Positions 8,078 through 20,951 of a stretch of 40,815 nt of DNA are shown in pieces. Origin of the DNA: Bdellovibrionales bacterium. GTDB lineage: Bacteria; Bdellovibrionota; Bacteriovoracia; Bacteriovoracales; Bacteriovoracaceae. Positions within the stretch are counted from its first letter, which is position 1. Every line of letters starts with the position of its first letter. Below the pieces are notes generated by a model. It had not been told where the DNA came from, did no database searches, and worked only from the letters and a program-made list of their open reading frames with translations. The position numbers were made by a program, and so were the translations under genes. The stretch is taken from positions 1 through 40,815 of the forward strand of contig JAHEZZ010000003.1 in NCBI GenBank assembly GCA_023250815.1, given 5' to 3'.

Positions 8078-9956
8078 ACTTGCTCTACAGTTTAAAAAAG
8101 CATTTCAGAATCTTTCAAGGTTTTACCCTTTTATTTTTGTTTCATCGTTTATCATTTTAATATTTCAATACAGCTTTCCCTCAATTGAGGCAGTCTTTTA
8201 CGATTTTAGAATTAAATATGATTTTGGAATTAAGCAATCACCCGAGACGGTTTTAGTTATAATGGATGAGGAAAGTGATGAGTTTTTGGGAGAAAAGTAT
8301 CCTTATACCTATTCAAGTCATCTGAAGGCAATGGAGAAGATTGCAAAAGATGGCCCAGCTATTATAAATTATTTTGTTTCTTTCTTGCCTCCGGAAAATA
8401 TCGAAGAATCGACAAGCTTGAGTAAGTTTAAAGATAAAATTAATGATTATAAAAACAGTGGTGGTGGATTTCGCTTTGCAACCGATGTAGACACCTGGGG
8501 AGAGCAACTTCCACCTTCTGCATTGGCGGATACAGGGCATTCCCTTGCTATTATCAATGTGGATAATGCATCTTTTTCAAAAGATGACATTTCCAGACGT
8601 GCAGTTTTGACAATCTCGGGAGAAAATTCTTTACACCTTTGGACTGCAAATAAATATCGAGAAATAAAAAAGAGACCACCAATTGTTAACAAAGATATTT
8701 GGGGAGCTTATTATTTGCGGGAAGCCGATGCACTTTTTTTTCTTTTTAGATACGCTGTAAATCCTCATGATAAAAATTCTGTGGTTAAATCAATTCCTTT
8801 CCATCGGGTTTTGGTTGGCAATTTCCCAGAGGGGTATTTTAAAAACAAAATAGTACTAGTGGGGTCAGCATTTACGTCGAATGCCAATGATTTTGCCCTC
8901 ACGCCATTTTCTAAAGATGAAATAAAGGTGCCCAAATTATTTATCCATTCTCAAATTATTAATTCCCTAATACAAGAAAAAACAGTTTTGCAGGTAAGCA
9001 AAACGATTTCTTTTTTATTTTGTCTTTTTATTTCAATAATTTTATCAATTTATATTTTAAAAAATAATCCAAGCCATGGACTTGTCATCACGGTATCCGT
9101 TATGGGCGTAGTTTTTCTTATCTCTTATTTTGTATTTTGTATTTTTGGGGTATGGATTTATTTAACACAAATTATTTTAACAATTTTTGCGACATACTAT
9201 ATTTGGGTTCCCTTTAGGGCGATTGAGGAATATCAGCAAAGATTTGCCATAGAGGAAGAGTCAAAAATTCTAAAACAGGTGGAAAGCTTAAAACAAAACT
9301 TTATTTCATTAATGAGTCATGATTTAAAAACACCGGTTGCTAGAATCGCAGGGATTGTGGATGTTTTAATGAGATTTGATATTCAAGAAAATGCCAAAAT
9401 TGAATTGAAAAAAATAACAGATTCAACGAAAGAGCTTAATAAATTTATAACTTCAATTTTAGATCTTACAAAAATTGAATCGAGAAATTTGTCTCTTAAT
9501 TTAGTTTCAAAAGATATTAATATGGTTATCAAGTCTGTCATTGACGATCTTCACCATGACGCTTCTTTGAAAGATATAAAAATTAAAGATGACCTATCTC
9601 CACTTTACCCAATTCAAATTGATATTGTTTTGATCAAAAGAGTAATTTCTAATCTTGTTGAAAATGCTATTAAATACTCAGGAAGTGGAACTGAAATTTA
9701 TTTAAAAAGCTGGGACGATGCTCAGTCTGTATATGTTCAAATTGATGACACCGGGATTGGAATCCCGGAAGAAGACATAAGACATATTTTCGACAAGTTC
9801 TATCGGGTATTAAATGACAATACTCACGCCATAAAGGGCTCAGGACTTGGGTTATATTTAGTAAAATATTTTGTTGAGTTACATGGTGCTACAATTACAG
9901 CTAATTCAAAGATTGGCGAAGGCACATCTTTCTTAATAACATTTAAGAATAGATAA
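8058..9956 (+). CDS. CHASE2-domain sensor histidine kinase
   Basis: CHASE2-like extracytoplasmic region, 3 TMs, H-box SLMSHDLKTPVARI, HATPase N/G boxes (NLVENAIKYS, DTGIGIPEEDI, GSGLGLYLVKYF). Confidence 0.9.
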   Translation: MKHLITKLALQFKKAFQNLSRFYPFIFVSSFIILIFQYSFPSIEAVFYDFRIKYDFGIKQSPETVLVIMDEESDEFLGEKYPYTYSSHLKAMEKIAKDGPAIINYFVSFLPPENIEESTSLSKFKDKINDYKNSGGGFRFATDVDTWGEQLPPSALADTGHSLAIINVDNASFSKDDISRRAVLTISGENSLHLWTANKYREIKKRPPIVNKDIWGAYYLREADALFFLFRYAVNPHDKNSVVKSIPFHRVLVGNFPEGYFKNKIVLVGSAFTSNANDFALTPFSKDEIKVPKLFIHSQIINSLIQEKTVLQVSKTISFLFCLFISIILSIYILKNNPSHGLVITVSVMGVVFLISYFVFCIFGVWIYLTQIILTIFATYYIWVPFRAIEEYQQRFAIEEESKILKQVESLKQNFISLMSHDLKTPVARIAGIVDVLMRFDIQENAKIELKKITDSTKELNKFITSILDLTKIESRNLSLNLVSKDINMVIKSVIDDLHHDASLKDIKIKDDLSPLYPIQIDIVLIKRVISNLVENAIKYSGSGTEIYLKSWDDAQSVYVQIDDTGIGIPEEDIRHIFDKFYRVLNDNTHAIKGSGLGLYLVKYFVELHGATITANSKIGEGTSFLITFKNR

Positions 9957-9966
9957 GGGGGATTTG

Positions 9967-11448
9967 ATGAATAGAGTTTTGGTAGTAGATGATGATCAGG
10001 TGCTTAGAGATTCTGTTAAAAGTTCTCTTGAATATCATAATTTTGTAGTGGACACCGCTTCAAATGGAAAAGAAGCACTATCGGCAATTTATAAAGAAAA
10101 ATACGATTTGGTACTGATGGATGTCAACATGCCAGAAATGAATGGCATGCAAGCATTGGTTGAAATTAAAAAATATGATCCTTCAATTATTGTTTTGATT
10201 TTAACTGCATATTCAAATGTTGGAGATGCTGTTAAGGCGGTAAAAGAGGGCGCTTATAATTATTTGGAAAAACCAATTACCTCTGAAAACCTTGCGGCCC
10301 TAATTAAACGGGCCCTAAAGGCAAGGTCCTTAGTTGAAACCTCAGCTTTTTCTGCGCCTTCTCTTTCTTTGGGAAAAACGACAGATGATAAATTTGTTGG
10401 CGAATCTGATGTTATGAAAAAAGTCTTTGGCGTGATCATGCGCTTGGCCCAGGTTAACACACCAGTTCTTATTCGAGGTGAATCAGGCACAGGGAAAGAG
10501 CTTGTGGCAAAAGCGATTCATTACAATGGGCCCAGAAAAGATGAAAAGTTTGTGACCATTAACTTGGCGGCAGTTCCTGATAATTTAATCGAATCTGAAT
10601 TATTTGGACATGAAAAGGGGGCCTTTACAGGAGCAACTGAAAGAAAAATTGGAAAATTTCAATTTGCTGATGGTGGAACAATTTTTTTGGATGAAATTGG
10701 CGACGTTACTCCACCCATGCAAGTAAAACTTCTTCGGGTCTTACAGGAAAAAACTTTCACCCCAGTGGGTTCTAACCGCGATGTTAAGGTTGATGTTAGG
10801 ATAATTGCAGCTTCTCATAAGCCATTTGAAGAGATGATTAAAGCGGGAACCTTTCGAGAAGACTTGTTTTATCGTTTAAATGTTCTTCCTGTTTATTTGC
10901 CACCAGTAAGGGAAAGGGTTTTAGATATACCTCACCTGATTGGATATTATGTTAAATATTTTAACAACGTTCACAATCTCAACATTGTTGGACCGACGGT
11001 TGAGGCCATGAAGCTTCTTTCTGTATATGCATGGCCGGGAAATATTCGCGAGCTTAGAAATGTGATTGAGCATGCATTTATTATTGAATCGACTGATTAT
11101 ATTCAGGCCAGCTCTCTTCCCGAGTCAGTGAAGAGAGGTTCAAAGATTATTTCCAAACAAGTTGAAGAAGACGAGTTGATTGATTTTGAAGGGATTAAAG
11201 ATTCTGTTTTGGATGGAGAAAAGAATGCATCTGATTCAAAAGGATATGATTTTTCTTTTGCGGCAATTAGTGAAAGTAATTTGGATTTTCAATTTGCGAA
11301 AGATTGTTTTGAAAAAGAATTTATTGTCTATGCTTTAAAGCTAAATAGGGGAAAAATTAATCAAACGGCCCTCAAGGCAAACATTCCCAAAAAAACACTT
11401 TTGAGGAAAATTGAAAAATATTCGATAAATCCAAAGGAATATTACTAG
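9967..11448 (+). CDS. Sigma-54-dependent NtrC-family response regulator
   Basis: Receiver (VVDDDQVLRD, VLMDVNMPEMNG), AAA+ (GESGTGKE, GAFTGA), C-terminal Fis-type HTH. ATG at 9967 is preferred over TTG at 9964, with upstream AAGGGGGA. Confidence 0.93.
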   Translation: MNRVLVVDDDQVLRDSVKSSLEYHNFVVDTASNGKEALSAIYKEKYDLVLMDVNMPEMNGMQALVEIKKYDPSIIVLILTAYSNVGDAVKAVKEGAYNYLEKPITSENLAALIKRALKARSLVETSAFSAPSLSLGKTTDDKFVGESDVMKKVFGVIMRLAQVNTPVLIRGESGTGKELVAKAIHYNGPRKDEKFVTINLAAVPDNLIESELFGHEKGAFTGATERKIGKFQFADGGTIFLDEIGDVTPPMQVKLLRVLQEKTFTPVGSNRDVKVDVRIIAASHKPFEEMIKAGTFREDLFYRLNVLPVYLPPVRERVLDIPHLIGYYVKYFNNVHNLNIVGPTVEAMKLLSVYAWPGNIRELRNVIEHAFIIESTDYIQASSLPESVKRGSKIISKQVEEDELIDFEGIKDSVLDGEKNASDSKGYDFSFAAISESNLDFQFAKDCFEKEFIVYALKLNRGKINQTALKANIPKKTLLRKIEKYSINPKEYY

Positions 11449-13216: not shown

Positions 13217-16200
13217 ATGCCACGTCTTAGATTTGTAACTGCGGCCGGCCTTTTTGATGGGCATGACGTTTCGATTAACATTATCCGTAGAATGCTACAA
13301 GAAAGAGGCGTAGAAGTTATTCATTTGGGGCACAACCGTTCATGCTTGGAAGTAGTCAATGCGGTATTGCAAGAAGACGCTCATGCTGTCGCCATTAGTT
13401 CTTATCAGGGCGGTCATAATGAATATTTTTTATACATAAAAGAGCTTTTAGATAAACAAGGTGCAACTGATGTTCGTATTTTTGGCGGAGGTGGGGGGGT
13501 TATAACTAAGAATGAAATTATTTCTCTGCAAGAAAAGGGAATCACAAAGATATATTCTCCAGAAGATGGAATGAAATTAGGACTTGAGGGAATTATCGAT
13601 GACATGATAACAAAAACTAATTACTCCACAATTCAAAACTACAAGTATGCTCCTTTAAAAATATCCAGCGATCTTTTTCAAGTGGCCAAAACCATCAGCT
13701 ACATAGAAGAAAATGGCAAATTGCCAGAGAATAATTTAGTTAAAAATAAAAATTGCCAGGTCCTTGGTGTCACTGGAACCGGTGGTGCTGGAAAATCGTC
13801 ACTCATTGATGAGCTTCTTCTTCGCTTTAAACATTTTCACCCTGAACTTAAAGTTGCATTAATTTCAGTGGACCCAACTAAGAAAAAAAATCAAGGTGCT
13901 TTGCTTGGAGATCGTATTAGACTTGGAGCTGCAAAATATCCTAATTTTTACATCAGGTCATTGGCCACCAGAGAGTCTGGCAATGAACTTAGCCCTCATA
14001 TTAATTTAGTTTTAGAATATTTGAAGTCGCTTGATTTTAACATGATCTTGGTGGAGACCTCGGGGATAGGCCAAGCTTCTGATGCGATCACAAAAGTTTC
14101 CAACAAATGTTTATATGTGATGACTCCAGAATATGGTGCCCAGACTCAGTTAGAAAAAATTGAAATGCTAGATGCTGCTAGCTATGTTGTGCTTAATAAA
14201 TTTGAAAGACAGAGATCAGAAGACGCACTAAGAGATATTAGGAAACAATATAAAAGAAATAAAAAAATTTTTGATAAAAATGAAAATGACGAACATCTTC
14301 CTATTTTTGGAACAGTGGCTTCCCATTTTAATGATCCAGGAGTGAACGATCTTTATTATAATATTTGCCAAGATTTTAATTTGGGTGTGGAGAGTTTAAA
14401 TGGAGTTGTTCGCTCCCGTTGTTCGAAGGCCAAGGGTCAAATTGTTCCAATAGAGAAACAGAATTACTTAAGGGAAATTTCTCAAATTTGCAAAGACTAT
14501 AATAGGCGAGCAATACAAAAATCTTCTGAAATTAAAAAACTTGAAGCGATGAAAATTGTCAAAGAAATTATTCAAGAGGAATCAATTGATAAAGAAATTA
14601 AAAAGTTATGCGATTCAATTGGAACCGATGCCCTTTTAGAACTAGATATTGGCAAAGAGAAGATTAATTATTTAAAGCAAGATGAATTTAATTACATGGC
14701 ACGAGATAAAAAGATTACGATCAAAACAAAATACACTAGTTTGAGTGGAATAAGTATTTCCAAGGTTGCAGTCCCTCATTTCTCAAGTGACTGTGATTTT
14801 TATAAGTTTATTAAACTACAAAATATACCAGGGGAGTTTCCTTTTAGCGCTGGGATTTTTCCTTTTCGGCGAAATGATGAAGACCCCAAAAGGATGTTTG
14901 CGGGAGAGGGTGGCCCAGTTAGAACAAATTCAAGATTTCATTTTCTGTCGAAGGATGATCATGCTAAGCGATTATCGACGGCCTTTGATTCAGTGACTCT
15001 TTATGGACAAGATCCAGATCATAGACCAGATATTTTTGGAAAGATTGGGGAGTCGGGAGTTAGTATTGCGACAGTAGAGGACATGGAGGATCTTTATAGA
15101 GGGTTTAAACTAACAGATAATTCCACCTCCGTCTCAATGACAATCAATGGGCCAGCACCAATTATTTTGGCAATGTTTATGAATGTGGCGCTAAGGCAAG
15201 AACTGGGAAAAAAAGAAATATACACTTCAGAAGAAATAAAAGGTGTACTTCAAAAAGTAAGGGGAACTGTTCAGGCCGATATTTTAAAAGAAGATCAAGC
15301 ACAAAATACTTGTATTTTCTCTCTTCCTTTTGCTCTAAAGATGATGGGTGATATTCAAGAATACTTTTCACAGAATAAAATTAAAAATTATTATACTGTT
15401 TCAATAAGTGGTTATCACATTGCGGAGGCCGGTGCAAACCCAATCACTCAACTTGCTTTTACTTTAGCGAATGGCTTCACCTATGTGGAGTATTATTTAA
15501 GTCGAGGTATTTTGATTAATGATTTTTGCGAAAACCTTTCATTCTTTTTTAGCAATGGTCTTGATCCTGAGTATACAGTTATTGGCAGAGTGGCCAGAAA
15601 GATTTGGGCAGTTGTTTTAAAATATAAATATAATGCTAACTTTAAATCTCAAAAATTTAAATATCATGTTCAAACTTCTGGTCGTTCTCTTCATGCTCAA
15701 GAAATTGATTTTAACGATATTAGGACGACGCTGCAGGCATTTATAGCCTTAAGTGATAACTGTAATTCTCTTCATACTAATGCATTTGATGAAGCAATCA
15801 CAACTCCCACAGTGGATTCTGTTAGAAGAGCAATGGCAATTCAAATGATTATTAATAAAGAATTCGGATTAAGCAAAACGGACAATGCTCTTCAGGGATA
15901 CTTCATTGTGGATGAATTAAGTGAATGGGTTGAAGGCGCAGTGCTCGAAGAGTTTGAAAGAATTTCTGATAAGGGCGGAGTTCTAGGTGCCATGGAAAGC
16001 ATGTATCAAAGGTCTAAAATACAAGACGAGTCGATTTATTATGAAAATCTGAAAGACTCAGGAAAATTGCCAATTGTTGGAGTAAATACTTATCTTCCTG
16101 ATAAAAATGAAGAACAAAAAGCCCCAGAGGTTCAGCTTACTCGGGCATCTTATAAAGAAAAAGAAGAACAAATAACCAGATTAAATAATTTTAAAGAAAA

Positions 16201-16363
16201 AAATTTAAAAAGTTCAAAAGATTATTTAAAAAGGCTTAAAGAAGTTGCTGTTAGCAATGGAAATATTTTTGAAGAACTACTTACGACAGTGAGATATTGC
16301 TCGCTTGGAGAGATTACTAACTCTCTTTTTGAAATCGGCGGTGAATACCGACGAAGCGTATAA
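13217..16363 (+). CDS. icmF: Fused isobutyryl-CoA mutase-type enzyme (B12-binding + G-protein chaperone + mutase), IcmF
   Basis: B12-binding GLFDGHDVSINIIRRML, MeaB-like P-loop GVTGTGGAGKSSL, mutase FPFSAGIFPFRRNDEDPKRMFAGEG, GYHIAEAGANPITQLAFTLANGFTYVEYYLSRG. Confidence 0.95.
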   Translation: MPRLRFVTAAGLFDGHDVSINIIRRMLQERGVEVIHLGHNRSCLEVVNAVLQEDAHAVAISSYQGGHNEYFLYIKELLDKQGATDVRIFGGGGGVITKNEIISLQEKGITKIYSPEDGMKLGLEGIIDDMITKTNYSTIQNYKYAPLKISSDLFQVAKTISYIEENGKLPENNLVKNKNCQVLGVTGTGGAGKSSLIDELLLRFKHFHPELKVALISVDPTKKKNQGALLGDRIRLGAAKYPNFYIRSLATRESGNELSPHINLVLEYLKSLDFNMILVETSGIGQASDAITKVSNKCLYVMTPEYGAQTQLEKIEMLDAASYVVLNKFERQRSEDALRDIRKQYKRNKKIFDKNENDEHLPIFGTVASHFNDPGVNDLYYNICQDFNLGVESLNGVVRSRCSKAKGQIVPIEKQNYLREISQICKDYNRRAIQKSSEIKKLEAMKIVKEIIQEESIDKEIKKLCDSIGTDALLELDIGKEKINYLKQDEFNYMARDKKITIKTKYTSLSGISISKVAVPHFSSDCDFYKFIKLQNIPGEFPFSAGIFPFRRNDEDPKRMFAGEGGPVRTNSRFHFLSKDDHAKRLSTAFDSVTLYGQDPDHRPDIFGKIGESGVSIATVEDMEDLYRGFKLTDNSTSVSMTINGPAPIILAMFMNVALRQELGKKEIYTSEEIKGVLQKVRGTVQADILKEDQAQNTCIFSLPFALKMMGDIQEYFSQNKIKNYYTVSISGYHIAEAGANPITQLAFTLANGFTYVEYYLSRGILINDFCENLSFFFSNGLDPEYTVIGRVARKIWAVVLKYKYNANFKSQKFKYHVQTSGRSLHAQEIDFNDIRTTLQAFIALSDNCNSLHTNAFDEAITTPTVDSVRRAMAIQMIINKEFGLSKTDNALQGYFIVDELSEWVEGAVLEEFERISDKGGVLGAMESMYQRSKIQDESIYYENLKDSGKLPIVGVNTYLPDKNEEQKAPEVQLTRASYKEKEEQITRLNNFKEKNLKSSKDYLKRLKEVAVSNGNIFEELLTTVRYCSLGEITNSLFEIGGEYRRSV

Positions 16364-16983: not shown

Positions 16984-17310
16984 ATGATTATAGAAATTAC
17001 AGAAAAGGCCAAGGAATATATTTTAGGTACATATAAAAAAGATTGTGTTGAGATTACACGGCCCATTCGTCTAAAGGTTATTGGCGGAGGGTGCTCGGGA
17101 ATGTCGTATAAAATGGAATTTGGCGAAAAAACGGACAAAGACAATTTTTTAGAATTTGGCGATTTGAAAGTAGTCATAGATTTAAAATCGAGTATTTATC
17201 TTAAAGGTGTTACCCTTGATTATAAAGATGGTCTTGAGGGAAAGGGGATTGTATTTATAAATCCAAGTGCAAAAAACACCTGTGGTTGTGGGGAATCATT
17301 TTCTGTCTAG
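16984..17310 (+). CDS. A-type iron-sulfur carrier (HesB/IscA/ErpA family)
   Basis: GGGCSGMSYKMEF and NPSAKNTCGCGESFSV: conserved three-Cys pattern. Confidence 0.93.
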   Translation: MIIEITEKAKEYILGTYKKDCVEITRPIRLKVIGGGCSGMSYKMEFGEKTDKDNFLEFGDLKVVIDLKSSIYLKGVTLDYKDGLEGKGIVFINPSAKNTCGCGESFSV

Positions 17311-17323
17311 CTATAAAAAATTT

Positions 17324-18862
17324 ATGGAAGATCGCATTGCCGGTGGCAAAGTTGAGCTTTTTGACTTTGATTGTTTTTCCGTAAAGGGGCTTGATGCATT
17401 TGAATTTTTGCAAGGCCAACTTGCGAGTGACATCTTATTAGCAGAGACAGAGAAAAAAGTAATTCTCTGCTCAAGAATCAACCGAGAAGGAAAATTAAAA
17501 AGTTTTTTTTATCTTTATAAAATTGAAGATTATTTCAGGCTTCTTATTCCCTCTTCCCTCGCCCAAGATACGATTTTAGATTTACAAAAGTTTATTATTT
17601 CTGAAGATGTGGAAATTGAGGAATTAACAATTTTGCACACATTTGTATTTGGGGAGTCTTCTAGTGTTTTTGTTGACGAGATGAAGGCCGAAATATTTAA
17701 CGAAGAAGGCCACCTTGTTTTAAATACAGAGGATTCTCGGTTACAAGAACTGCCAATAGTGAATGCTTCAGTCCTTGAAATAATTAAATTTTTAAATTTT
17801 TGGCCAAGCTCGAATGATACGAGGCTTTTTATAGAGAAGTTTTCGTGGGAAACTCCTTTTGCGAAGTCTCTAAGTTTAAGCAAGGGATGCTATTTGGGGC
17901 AAGAGTCAGTCAATAAAGTATTGTCTGGCAGGGGCGCAAATTATTTTCCGGGCCTTCTTCTCTCTTCTTCGCAATTTAATCTTCAGAGAAACCTCTGCGA
18001 TGGAGCAGAGGGTAAGATTATAAAGTATGGTGGTGAAGCCGTTGGTGAAATTTTATCTTATTGTTTTTTTGATGAATTTAAAATTTACGCTTGTGTAGTA
18101 AAGAGAGAGTTTCGAATCAACAATAAAGAATTTGAATTTGAGCTTGGTGGAAAGAAGATTCTCGCAAAATTTTATAATTTCCCACTTTTTAATTTTAATT
18201 TAAATAGTGGGAAATCAGAATATTTGCAAAACATTGGACAAAAACTATTTGTAAATGACGAAACAGATAAAGCGATTAGTTGTCTTCGACAATCATTACA
18301 TTTTAACCCTGAAAATCTAGAATCGCTGGAGTCACTTGGAGTAATTTATTTGCGCATTGAAAAATTTATTGAAGCAATTATATGTTTTGATAAACTAATT
18401 GAACTGTCGCCGACATCCCCTCTCCCTCATACAAATAAATCTATAATCTTTGCGAAGCAAGGAAAAATTGAAGAAGCAGAAAAAGAAAAAGAGCAAGCAG
18501 TACTCAAGGAATTTCAAAAAAATAATAACTTACATGGCCCTGATCAAGTTGCTGAAAAAGAGGATATGGTCAGAGAGGAAATGTTTTTAGATGTATTAAT
18601 CATTGATCCCGATGATAGTTTTGCAAATTATGGATTAGCTGAGATTAACTTTAAAAGAAAAAACTTAGAAGAAGCGAAGATGTATTTAAACAAATTATTG
18701 ATAATAAAAAGCAATGATTATAATGCTTTGTTTTTAATGGGGAAAATATTATTGGAAAATGGAAAGGTGTTAGAGGGTTTAGATTATTTTAGAAAAACGG
18801 TAACTGCTGCAGCTGCAAAGGGTGATTTGAAAATAGCAAATTTAGCGCAAGGATACCTATAA
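17324..18862 (+). CDS. YgfZ/GcvT-like folate-binding protein fused to C-terminal TPR repeats
   Basis: KGCYLGQESVNKVLSGRG matches the YgfZ K-G-C-Y-x-G-Q-E signature; C-terminal half contains TPR-like helices (AISCLRQSLHFNPENLESLESLGVIYLRI...). ATG at 17324 is more likely than the ORF start at 17267 inside the upstream gene. Confidence 0.8.
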   Translation: MEDRIAGGKVELFDFDCFSVKGLDAFEFLQGQLASDILLAETEKKVILCSRINREGKLKSFFYLYKIEDYFRLLIPSSLAQDTILDLQKFIISEDVEIEELTILHTFVFGESSSVFVDEMKAEIFNEEGHLVLNTEDSRLQELPIVNASVLEIIKFLNFWPSSNDTRLFIEKFSWETPFAKSLSLSKGCYLGQESVNKVLSGRGANYFPGLLLSSSQFNLQRNLCDGAEGKIIKYGGEAVGEILSYCFFDEFKIYACVVKREFRINNKEFEFELGGKKILAKFYNFPLFNFNLNSGKSEYLQNIGQKLFVNDETDKAISCLRQSLHFNPENLESLESLGVIYLRIEKFIEAIICFDKLIELSPTSPLPHTNKSIIFAKQGKIEEAEKEKEQAVLKEFQKNNNLHGPDQVAEKEDMVREEMFLDVLIIDPDDSFANYGLAEINFKRKNLEEAKMYLNKLLIIKSNDYNALFLMGKILLENGKVLEGLDYFRKTVTAAAAKGDLKIANLAQGYL

Positions 18863-20272
18863 TGAATAATGCCCTATTTTGTCGTTAAGATCATTAAGGG
18901 AGTTAAAAAAAATGTCGTTAGACTTATCCTCTTTTAACTCAATGATCGATTGTTTATATTCACCCTCACACATGTCTATGAGTTCGTAAATCCAAGAAAT
19001 AACTTCATACCCTCGAAGAGTTATTTTCTTCTTTTTGTATGCATGATCAATGAATTTCCGGGTGTGGCCAAGCATTTCGTATTCTTCTACAATTCTTTTG
19101 TTAATTTTTTGCAACGAAAATTTTGATTCCTGATATTTTTTTAATATGGCCAAGACGTCAGGATTAAGAAAAGATTTTTTTATCTGGCAAAAGATTTGAA
19201 GTGCAAAATAAAATGTGAAAGTCGCATGATAGATGCCCCTAATTGGCCTGAGGGCCTGTCTCCATGGGCTAAAATAAATCTTTTCATCATCCTCATTAAT
19301 GAGTTCTTCTTGATTAAGAATTGCGTTTAGATAGTGATGGCCATTTTCATGAATAATGTCGTCAATTAAATCTAAAAAATCTCTTTCAAAAACATTAATA
19401 GATGAAAATGCAGGAAGTCCTTGCATCGAAAAGCTGACGATTCCTGGCTCATTAATTAATACAAATGTTTCAGAAAAATTTTGTACAGTATTTAATAAAT
19501 CGATTGAGACTAATTCGATAATTTTAAATGCATCACTGAATAGATTTTGTGAATTTATATTATGAATTAACTTAAACTGATTAAAAATTAGACTTGATTT
19601 AACTTCTGAAATTTTACAGGTTTCCGTTTGTTCATCTAGATTGATCTCCATTCCTCTGTATGGTAAATTAAATTGTTCAAGTGATAAAAGGGCGAAATCT
19701 TCTCTTGGTAAATTAATAAAAAATTTATTTTCTCTAAGATAAATTTGATGATCATTGTCGCCGATATTTTCCAGTGGAAGATAAATGGCCTTATCGAAAT
19801 CAACTTGTTTTTTTGTGGATATTTGCAAATAATAAAAGCTAATGACATGATCTTCTAAAATCCTCATAGATTTCAAAGAACATTCTTCAATCGTTTGCCC
19901 TTCTTCTTGATACGCTTTAAAAAAATTAACAAGATCTGAATCGTTCCAAAAATCCAAAATCTCTTCTTCGATTTTTTGGAATACTTTATTGCTTTTTTTA
20001 TTTATATGTGAGGATAAATCTTGATGAAGTTGTGAAATATAAACAAAATTATCGATTAAAGTAGTCCAATAAAACTTCATTGGAGAATAAGTGGCAAGGT
20101 CATTTTGGCATAAAATTTCATTCAGATCTTGCAGAAATGTTTCACTGAAAAGTGATTGTGCTTCTATGCTCTCTATGTCTTCTCGCATTTCAGAAATAAA
20201 ATCATTAAAAACAGTTTCAATATTTTTTAAAAGAGTTACTTGAAAATTCTGATTGAATAATAGGTTGTTCAC
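18857..20272 (-). CDS. HExxH-motif protein resembling alpha-KG-HExxH-type peptide beta-hydroxylases
   Basis: IIHENGHHYLNAILNQEELINEDDEKIYFSPWRQALRPIRGIYHATFTF resembles 'HExxHxxLxALL...YxAPWRxDPRPLxGLLxGxYAH'. GTG start. Confidence 0.55.
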   Translation of the reverse strand: MNNLLFNQNFQVTLLKNIETVFNDFISEMREDIESIEAQSLFSETFLQDLNEILCQNDLATYSPMKFYWTTLIDNFVYISQLHQDLSSHINKKSNKVFQKIEEEILDFWNDSDLVNFFKAYQEEGQTIEECSLKSMRILEDHVISFYYLQISTKKQVDFDKAIYLPLENIGDNDHQIYLRENKFFINLPREDFALLSLEQFNLPYRGMEINLDEQTETCKISEVKSSLIFNQFKLIHNINSQNLFSDAFKIIELVSIDLLNTVQNFSETFVLINEPGIVSFSMQGLPAFSSINVFERDFLDLIDDIIHENGHHYLNAILNQEELINEDDEKIYFSPWRQALRPIRGIYHATFTFYFALQIFCQIKKSFLNPDVLAILKKYQESKFSLQKINKRIVEEYEMLGHTRKFIDHAYKKKKITLRGYEVISWIYELIDMCEGEYKQSIIELKEDKSNDIFFNSLNDLNDKIGHYSL

Positions 20273-20288: not shown

Positions 20289-20363
20289 TGGCTGGGAAGG
20301 TGGGACTCGAACCCACGACCAATTGATTAACAGTCAACTGCGCTACCACTGCGCTACTCCCCA
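20289..20363 (-). tRNA. tRNA-Asn(GTT), CCA encoded
   Basis: Reverse complement TGGGGAGTAGCGCAGTGGTAGCGCAGTTGACTGTTAATCAATTGGTCGTGGGTTCGAGTCCCACCTTCCCAGCCA folds as a cloverleaf (7-bp acceptor with one G-T, GGTTCGAGTCC T-arm); anticodon GTT. Confidence 0.97.
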
Positions 20364-20528: not shown

Positions 20529-20951
20529 ATGGAACAAAAGCAATCAATCTTTTTTAGATTATTGGGGGTTTTAACTCCCGAAGTTATTGCCATGTTGACC
20601 ACGATATCAATGGGAGCAAATAAATTATCGCTTACAGAGATGATACTAGCGGCTGAAAATGGCGATAAGGGGCCCGCTCCTTCAAATGTGGTGTTGATTG
20701 AAGATTTAAAAAAAGAAAAGGTTTGTGAAAAGATTGCAGAACCATTTGATTCATCCATTGAAGGTGTGAGTGCCACTATTCTCGAAGTTAAAAAGCGCTT
20801 AAAAAAATCGCAAGAAAAAATAAAAGAATCAGAAATATATGGAATGTATAAAAAAAGTTCTTTAGTTGATTTAAATCAAGCAAGAAAAAATCGCGAAGAT
20901 ATGACCAAGTCTTCAAATCTTGGCGTCTTGGTAAATAAAAAACAGGCGTAG
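20529..20951 (+). CDS. Hypothetical protein
   Basis: ORF MEQKQSIFFRLLGVLTPEVIAML...; ORF track start is 20463, internal ATG at 20529 also plausible. Confidence 0.45.
   Translation: MEQKQSIFFRLLGVLTPEVIAMLTTISMGANKLSLTEMILAAENGDKGPAPSNVVLIEDLKKEKVCEKIAEPFDSSIEGVSATILEVKKRLKKSQEKIKESEIYGMYKKSSLVDLNQARKNREDMTKSSNLGVLVNKKQA

Follow-up and report, generated by a model that had tools for sequence, protein, structure and literature searches.

Only in 2024 were enzymes of the alpha-ketoglutarate (aKG)-HExxH family, until then labelled ‘metallopeptidase’, reassigned as oxygenases. The characterised relatives are Fe(II)/aKG-dependent oxygenases, gated by substrate binding, whose targets for beta-hydroxylation in peptides are Asp, His, Phe, Gln or Pro residues, and the members with shown activity in the literature we read serve pathways for ribosomally synthesised and post-translationally modified peptides (RiPPs) (PMC12636437, PMC13060819). 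Here we describe a member of this family encoded in a 40,815-nucleotide stretch of DNA (positions 1 to 40,815 of contig JAHEZZ010000003.1, assembly GCA_023250815.1; hereafter the window) from a Bdellovibrionales bacterium of the family Bacteriovoracaceae, whose draft genome comprises 2.7 Mb and is 86% complete. We propose that this protein is probably a stand-alone Fe(II)/aKG-dependent peptide or protein hydroxylase that works in trans; its target would be a protein whose gene is unlinked and probably chromosomal, a chromosomal cellular protein being a more likely substrate than a RiPP precursor. The gene and its parts are as follows.

18857..20272, minus strand: aKG-HExxH-type protein of 471 residues, taken from the list of open reading frames (ORFs), with a GTG start and a TIGR04267 match over residues 279-354
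19334..19351, minus strand: HENGHH (His308, Glu309, His312, His313), the presumed iron-binding HExxH motif, invariant in 15 orthologs
19226..19270, minus strand: SPWRQALRPIRGIYH (residues 335-349), with S335, P336, W337, R338, R342, P343, R345, G346, Y348 and H349 invariant; aligned to ChlH SPWREDLRPPSGLLH
18857..19555, minus strand: catalytic half (residues 240-471), predicted to adopt a ChlBH-like fold from a profile match to 8s5f and a structure model
19556..20272, minus strand: variable N-terminal half (residues 1-239), presumed to recognise substrate; weakly conserved, with no family match

Comparison with described systems places the protein close to the HExxH domain of Chlorogloeopsis ChlB (ChlH, Protein Data Bank (PDB) entry 8s5f), with which it shares the catalytic-domain profile, the HExxH motif, an SPWR..LRP..G..HA block and the predicted fold; unlike ChlB, the window protein stands alone, has another N-terminal half and lies among no RiPP genes. 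SjiH (22nu/22ob) is alike in the HExxH motif and PWR..LRP..G block by sequence, and in the fold of the model, but its PDB deposition carries the name radical SAM core domain-containing protein. The likeness to the Pseudomonas enzymes PflC and PosC is one of annotation only (IPR026337) and concerns Fe/aKG beta-hydroxylation of peptide residues, whereas those enzymes are encoded with a precursor, an MNIO-nitroreductase and transporters (PMC12636437).

Assignment to the family rests on concordant searches. The 471-residue protein scores 58.9 bits against the NCBIfam model TIGR04267 (aKG-HExxH peptide beta-hydroxylase; curated cut-off, 40), a model matched by all 15 aligned orthologs, while a Pfam search of the single protein returned zero families up to E 10, including no peptidase and no cupin, and no Pfam peptidase family was matched over 15 family members. 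Its PDB sequence matches are limited to ChlH and SjiH; 8s5f was recovered by phmmer (E=1.4e-8) and, with the profile, by hmmsearch (E=3.6e-15), in an alignment that spans HENGHH and SPWRQALRPIRGIYH. The GTG start is correct, since an in-frame TAG lies five codons 5′ of it and the N-terminus lines up with the ATG starts of orthologs. Across the 15 orthologs, which share 27-39% identity, 39 columns (start Met not counted) are invariant, among them H308, E309, N310, G311, H312, H313 and N316 as well as the ten residues of the SPWR block listed above, so that the resemblance in HENGHH and SPWR block is not due to chance. The preliminary description, made from the letters alone, had located HENGHH exactly (residues 308-313), had put SPWR about 25 residues later (it begins 27 residues past His308) and had seen a likeness to aKG-HExxH enzymes; profile and structural comparisons both bear this out, and the protein is a true member of the family. 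The domain name itself is already obtainable by automated annotation.

Structure prediction agrees with this assignment. A full-length model (predicted local distance difference test score, pLDDT, 47) was set aside, and a model of residues 240-471, made from a shallow alignment of the window protein and two related loci, reached a pLDDT of 68.7 and a predicted template-modelling score (pTM) of 0.71. VIA-align ranked 8s5f (Z 12.6; 169 residues, 3.6 Å) and 22ob (Z 11.8) as the two best structures ahead of an unrelated designed helical protein (Z 8.4), with the caveat that helical models can reach such Z values by chance, so that what counts is that fold and sequence point the same way; Foldseek itself placed 22ob first (E 0.03). 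A ChlBH-type fold is accordingly a prediction for the catalytic half, from a model of medium confidence.

If the protein works as ChlBH does, its HExxH histidines would hold Fe(II), and His349 may add a further ligand, a role that we infer. The arginines of the SPWR...RP.RG block would bind aKG, with Arg338, Arg342 and Arg345 as candidate contacts; binding of aKG through positively charged residues is mentioned for ChlBH-type enzymes in a study of a different HExxH-like enzyme (PMC12614342). Because the catalytic residues are the same as in the characterised relatives, the chemistry would be the same: a zincin-like fold, yet one performing C-H hydroxylation, probably at the beta-carbon. The first ~240 residues diverge among orthologs while the catalytic residues stay invariant, and across 15 members Pfam assigned them to no family consistently; this half may recognise the substrate.

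The profile found the gene in 92 of 129 Bacteriovoracaceae genomes, of which 86 were kept after excluding weak paralog matches (G008, G058, G094; G, g and L numbers are our own handles for genomes, genera and loci) and low-scoring copies of genus g24 (G023, G071, G072). Outside the family only weak profile matches were obtained, and no relative was found on viral contigs. Nearly all orthologs read occupy a single chromosomal slot, which was the same in the 14 relatives compared and in further genera and whose surroundings in the window include three features.

20289..20363, minus strand: tRNA-Asn(GTT), on the same strand as the HExxH gene, its 3′ end 16 nucleotides before the GTG
17267..18862, plus strand: YgfZ-like/TPR fusion, a convergent neighbour overlapping the HExxH ORF by 6 bp; a slot marker whose functional link is only putative
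20529..20951, plus strand: small Bacteriovoracaceae-specific protein, divergent to the HExxH gene; the frame is open from 20463, and 20529 agrees with the start of homologs

At the ortholog loci read, the genes are arranged, with small rearrangements, as AstA(-AstD) / small divergent gene / tRNA-Asn -> HExxH / <- YgfZ-TPR <- IscA-like <- cobalamin adenosyltransferase <- IcmF (AstA, AstD and the YgfZ link were assigned via NCBIfam). The tRNA-Asn gene, absent from the preliminary description, precedes the HExxH gene at all syntenic loci scanned, in most of them as its immediate upstream neighbour. Given the 16-nucleotide gap and no terminator-like site between the tRNA and the GTG, co-transcription of the two is plausible; a promoter scan at the locus gave matches no more frequent than in shuffled sequences. 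In neighbour-gene trees, presence and absence of the HExxH gene are scattered over several clades, and a clean empty slot, with tRNA-Asn followed directly by YgfZ-TPR, is found in the HExxH-less loci L112, L117, L119, L178, L191 and L207. The pattern is best read as one old gene, vertically inherited and repeatedly lost, and its repeated loss means that it is not essential. The term ‘orphan’ in the preliminary description is apt as regards a RiPP partner, but the position of the gene on the chromosome is strictly conserved.

Departures from this pattern were seen in two genera. Genus g24 keeps full-length copies in the same slot without the motif (L030 of G023, 9269-10747; L122 of G071, 8289-9725), HExxH in these two copies having become SNALH and SSALH and the SPWR and RP..G..H elements being lost as well; the copy of G072 scores equally low. 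These look like a retained pseudo-enzyme, as in the FxsBH ‘lost HExxH’ form of NCBIfam. In genus g51 the ortholog has moved out of the tRNA-Asn slot, and at L120 (6587-9400) it immediately precedes a gene for an ABC-F ATPase (PRK15064-like). As a clue to translation this neighbour was rejected, being seen only in g51 (L120; an untyped gene matching it in size and position adjoins the L121 copy); the similar-looking neighbour at L133 is an M3-type oligopeptidase.

No RiPP machinery (precursor, tailoring or export genes) was found among the window genes scanned with Pfam, as the preliminary description had noted of the surroundings, and no RiPP precursor, exporter or partner gene is conserved at the HExxH locus in relatives. 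Since an old, vertically inherited gene thus sits in one slot without a conserved precursor, exporter or partner, the enzyme most likely works in trans, its substrate being a protein whose gene lies elsewhere in the genome. The divergent ORF at 20529-20951 had been put forward as the only small candidate partner in view. Its existence and start are supported by homologs, but as an obligate partner or dedicated substrate it was rejected: 112 of the 129 Bacteriovoracaceae genomes carry the gene, whose product has no family match, and many of them lack HExxH, its conserved C-terminus GVL[VI]NK[KR] is unchanged where the enzyme is absent, and genus g51 has the enzyme without it. Two tailoring helpers were likewise considered and set aside as required components, neither tracking the HExxH enzyme in the relatives sampled: SPASM radical SAM matches are scattered, with one sub-threshold match in the host genome, and MNIO genes are absent from the 99-100% complete HExxH-positive genomes G002, G010, G014 and G016. 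Unlinked to the window, L143 (2317-4166, host genome) and L144 (4324-5979) are MNIO loci that also hold small signal-peptide ORFs, in a bufferin-like arrangement.

These observations bear on the rival explanations. In a split RiPP system the enzyme would tailor a precursor encoded elsewhere, precursor and maturation genes being unlinked. All family members with shown activity in the literature we read act on RiPP precursors, and the host genome has the two MNIO loci just mentioned; against this stand the near-complete genomes that have the enzyme without an MNIO gene, the lack of a conserved precursor-like gene at the locus and an inheritance that is vertical and in place, unlike that of mobile biosynthetic gene clusters, and we regard such a system as unlikely. 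A metallopeptidase that binds zinc and hydrolyses peptides would fit an HExxH motif within a zincin-like fold, and one member of the family, PflC, uses several metals to hydrolyse a leaderless peptide (PMC12636437). The missing Pfam peptidase match, the invariant SPWR..RP..G..H block of the oxygenase branch and ChlBH and SjiH as closest solved relatives nevertheless make this reading very improbable. We hold action in trans on a housekeeping or otherwise unlinked substrate, a possibility already raised in the preliminary description, to be the likeliest reading in view of the fixed slot, the retention in 86 of 129 genomes and the lack of a conserved partner. Several points weigh against it: the host genome does contain bufferin-like MNIO loci and a sub-threshold SPASM match elsewhere, and a poorly conserved precursor peptide elsewhere in the genome is possible; the catalytic-half model is of medium confidence only; the gene has been lost repeatedly; the motif-less ORF kept in g24 means that the role there may be partly non-catalytic; and the tRNA-side slot also takes other inserted genes, so position by itself may mean little.

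A further explanation names a substrate and is a special case of hydroxylation in trans: non-orthologous replacement of RoxA/YcfD, with the HExxH protein carrying out beta-hydroxylation of uL16 Arg81 or an overlapping ribosomal hydroxylation, which would make it rare for a genome to retain both enzymes. RoxA/YcfD (4ccl, 4csw), a 2-oxoglutarate/Fe beta-hydroxylase of a core cellular protein, is a possible counterpart by distribution. It targets the beta-carbon of uL16 Arg81, like HExxH enzymes (PMC4295552; site also in PMC5862935), but has a cupin/JmjC fold and unrelated sequence; the window protein has no cupin/JmjC_2 (PF08007) domain in the Pfam search and so is not RoxA/YcfD by descent. RoxA was sought through a search for cupin protein hydroxylases as functional equivalents, and the association was found post hoc. 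Full-length RoxA/YcfD orthologs, confirmed against the E. coli and R. marinus structures (4ccl, E=1.1e-38; 4csw, E=2.9e-46), occur in 21 family genomes and are separated by a score gap from everything else (at least 220 versus at most 71 bits). They are present in 4 of 86 HExxH-positive and 17 of 43 HExxH-negative genomes (P=1.3e-6, Fisher's test, the genomes not being independent). The contrast was weaker among the 73 better genomes (4/54 versus 6/19, P=0.016), and among 57 genomes with resolved locus state the counts were 4/34 versus 12/23. Pagel's test of correlated evolution, run on a tree of 62 genomes, returned P=0.015 with midpoint rooting and P=0.003 with another root, and the observed likelihood ratio (LR) was reached in 3 of 120 parametric bootstrap simulations; two control locus genes scored LR as high (12.9 and 15.0), which is expected from physical linkage but is a warning. 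The avoidance thus survives phylogenetic testing modestly (P about 0.003-0.03) and is suggestive.

This distribution and the shared beta-carbon chemistry speak for replacement; the post hoc discovery, 13 genera with neither gene, the four genomes with both (G006, G102, G107, G108), the weaker contrast in better genomes and the linked controls speak against it. The uL16 target Arg was discarded as a discriminator, being kept in all groups in every genome read. Genome G042 was considered as a within-genus HExxH-to-RoxA swap and set aside: its contig ends at tRNA-Asn, no YgfZ-TPR was found and HExxH absence is unproven. We consider the replacement improbable, and give equally little probability to its broader version, in which a RiPP-enzyme fold was captured into the Bacteriovoracaceae core genome and hydroxylates a ribosomal or other core protein. 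As a separate observation, the uL16 loop VRMGKGKG, the RoxA target, reads VRMG[NASG]GKG in six genomes (L253, the host, and L249, L251, L252, L255 and L244), none of which has RoxA, and the variant is found in 0 of 8 RoxA-positive genomes read, numbers too few to judge.

Other features of the window and its relatives were recorded in passing. Pfam identified among the window genes a two-component system, LspA, Lgt, a ferredoxin-like protein, IcmF, a cobalamin adenosyltransferase and a flagellar block; the IcmF-type gene (13217-16363) encodes a fused B12-dependent acyl-CoA mutase with B12-binding, MeaB GTPase and mutase domains and lies beside its adenosyltransferase. In several HExxH-less genomes (e.g. 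L114, L113, L202, L208) other genes occupy the stretch after tRNA-Asn, which suggests an insertion-prone site. Locus L133 (5321-7961) carries a divergent HExxH protein of 356 residues, below the TIGR04267 cut-off, that overlaps an oligopeptidase-A-like gene. A second TIGR04267-like type (~280-305 residues) has a puzzling setting among sensory genes: its cassette also encodes a histidine kinase, a sigma-54 response regulator, an SBP_bac_5 solute-binding protein and a ~155-residue protein. The complete cassette was typed in L127 (3114-9158); it is also present in L126, L129, L130 and L134 and looser in L132 and L135, with no RiPP genes seen.

What appears to be new about the HExxH protein is that its gene keeps to a fixed slot, is retained across the lineage, has no RiPP partner and shows avoidance of RoxA. 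If it does act in trans on a cellular protein, this lineage-wide, vertically inherited and RiPP-free member would mean that the aKG-HExxH fold also serves ordinary cellular proteins, and, should the RoxA lead hold true, it would represent a second, unrelated bacterial solution to ribosomal protein hydroxylation.
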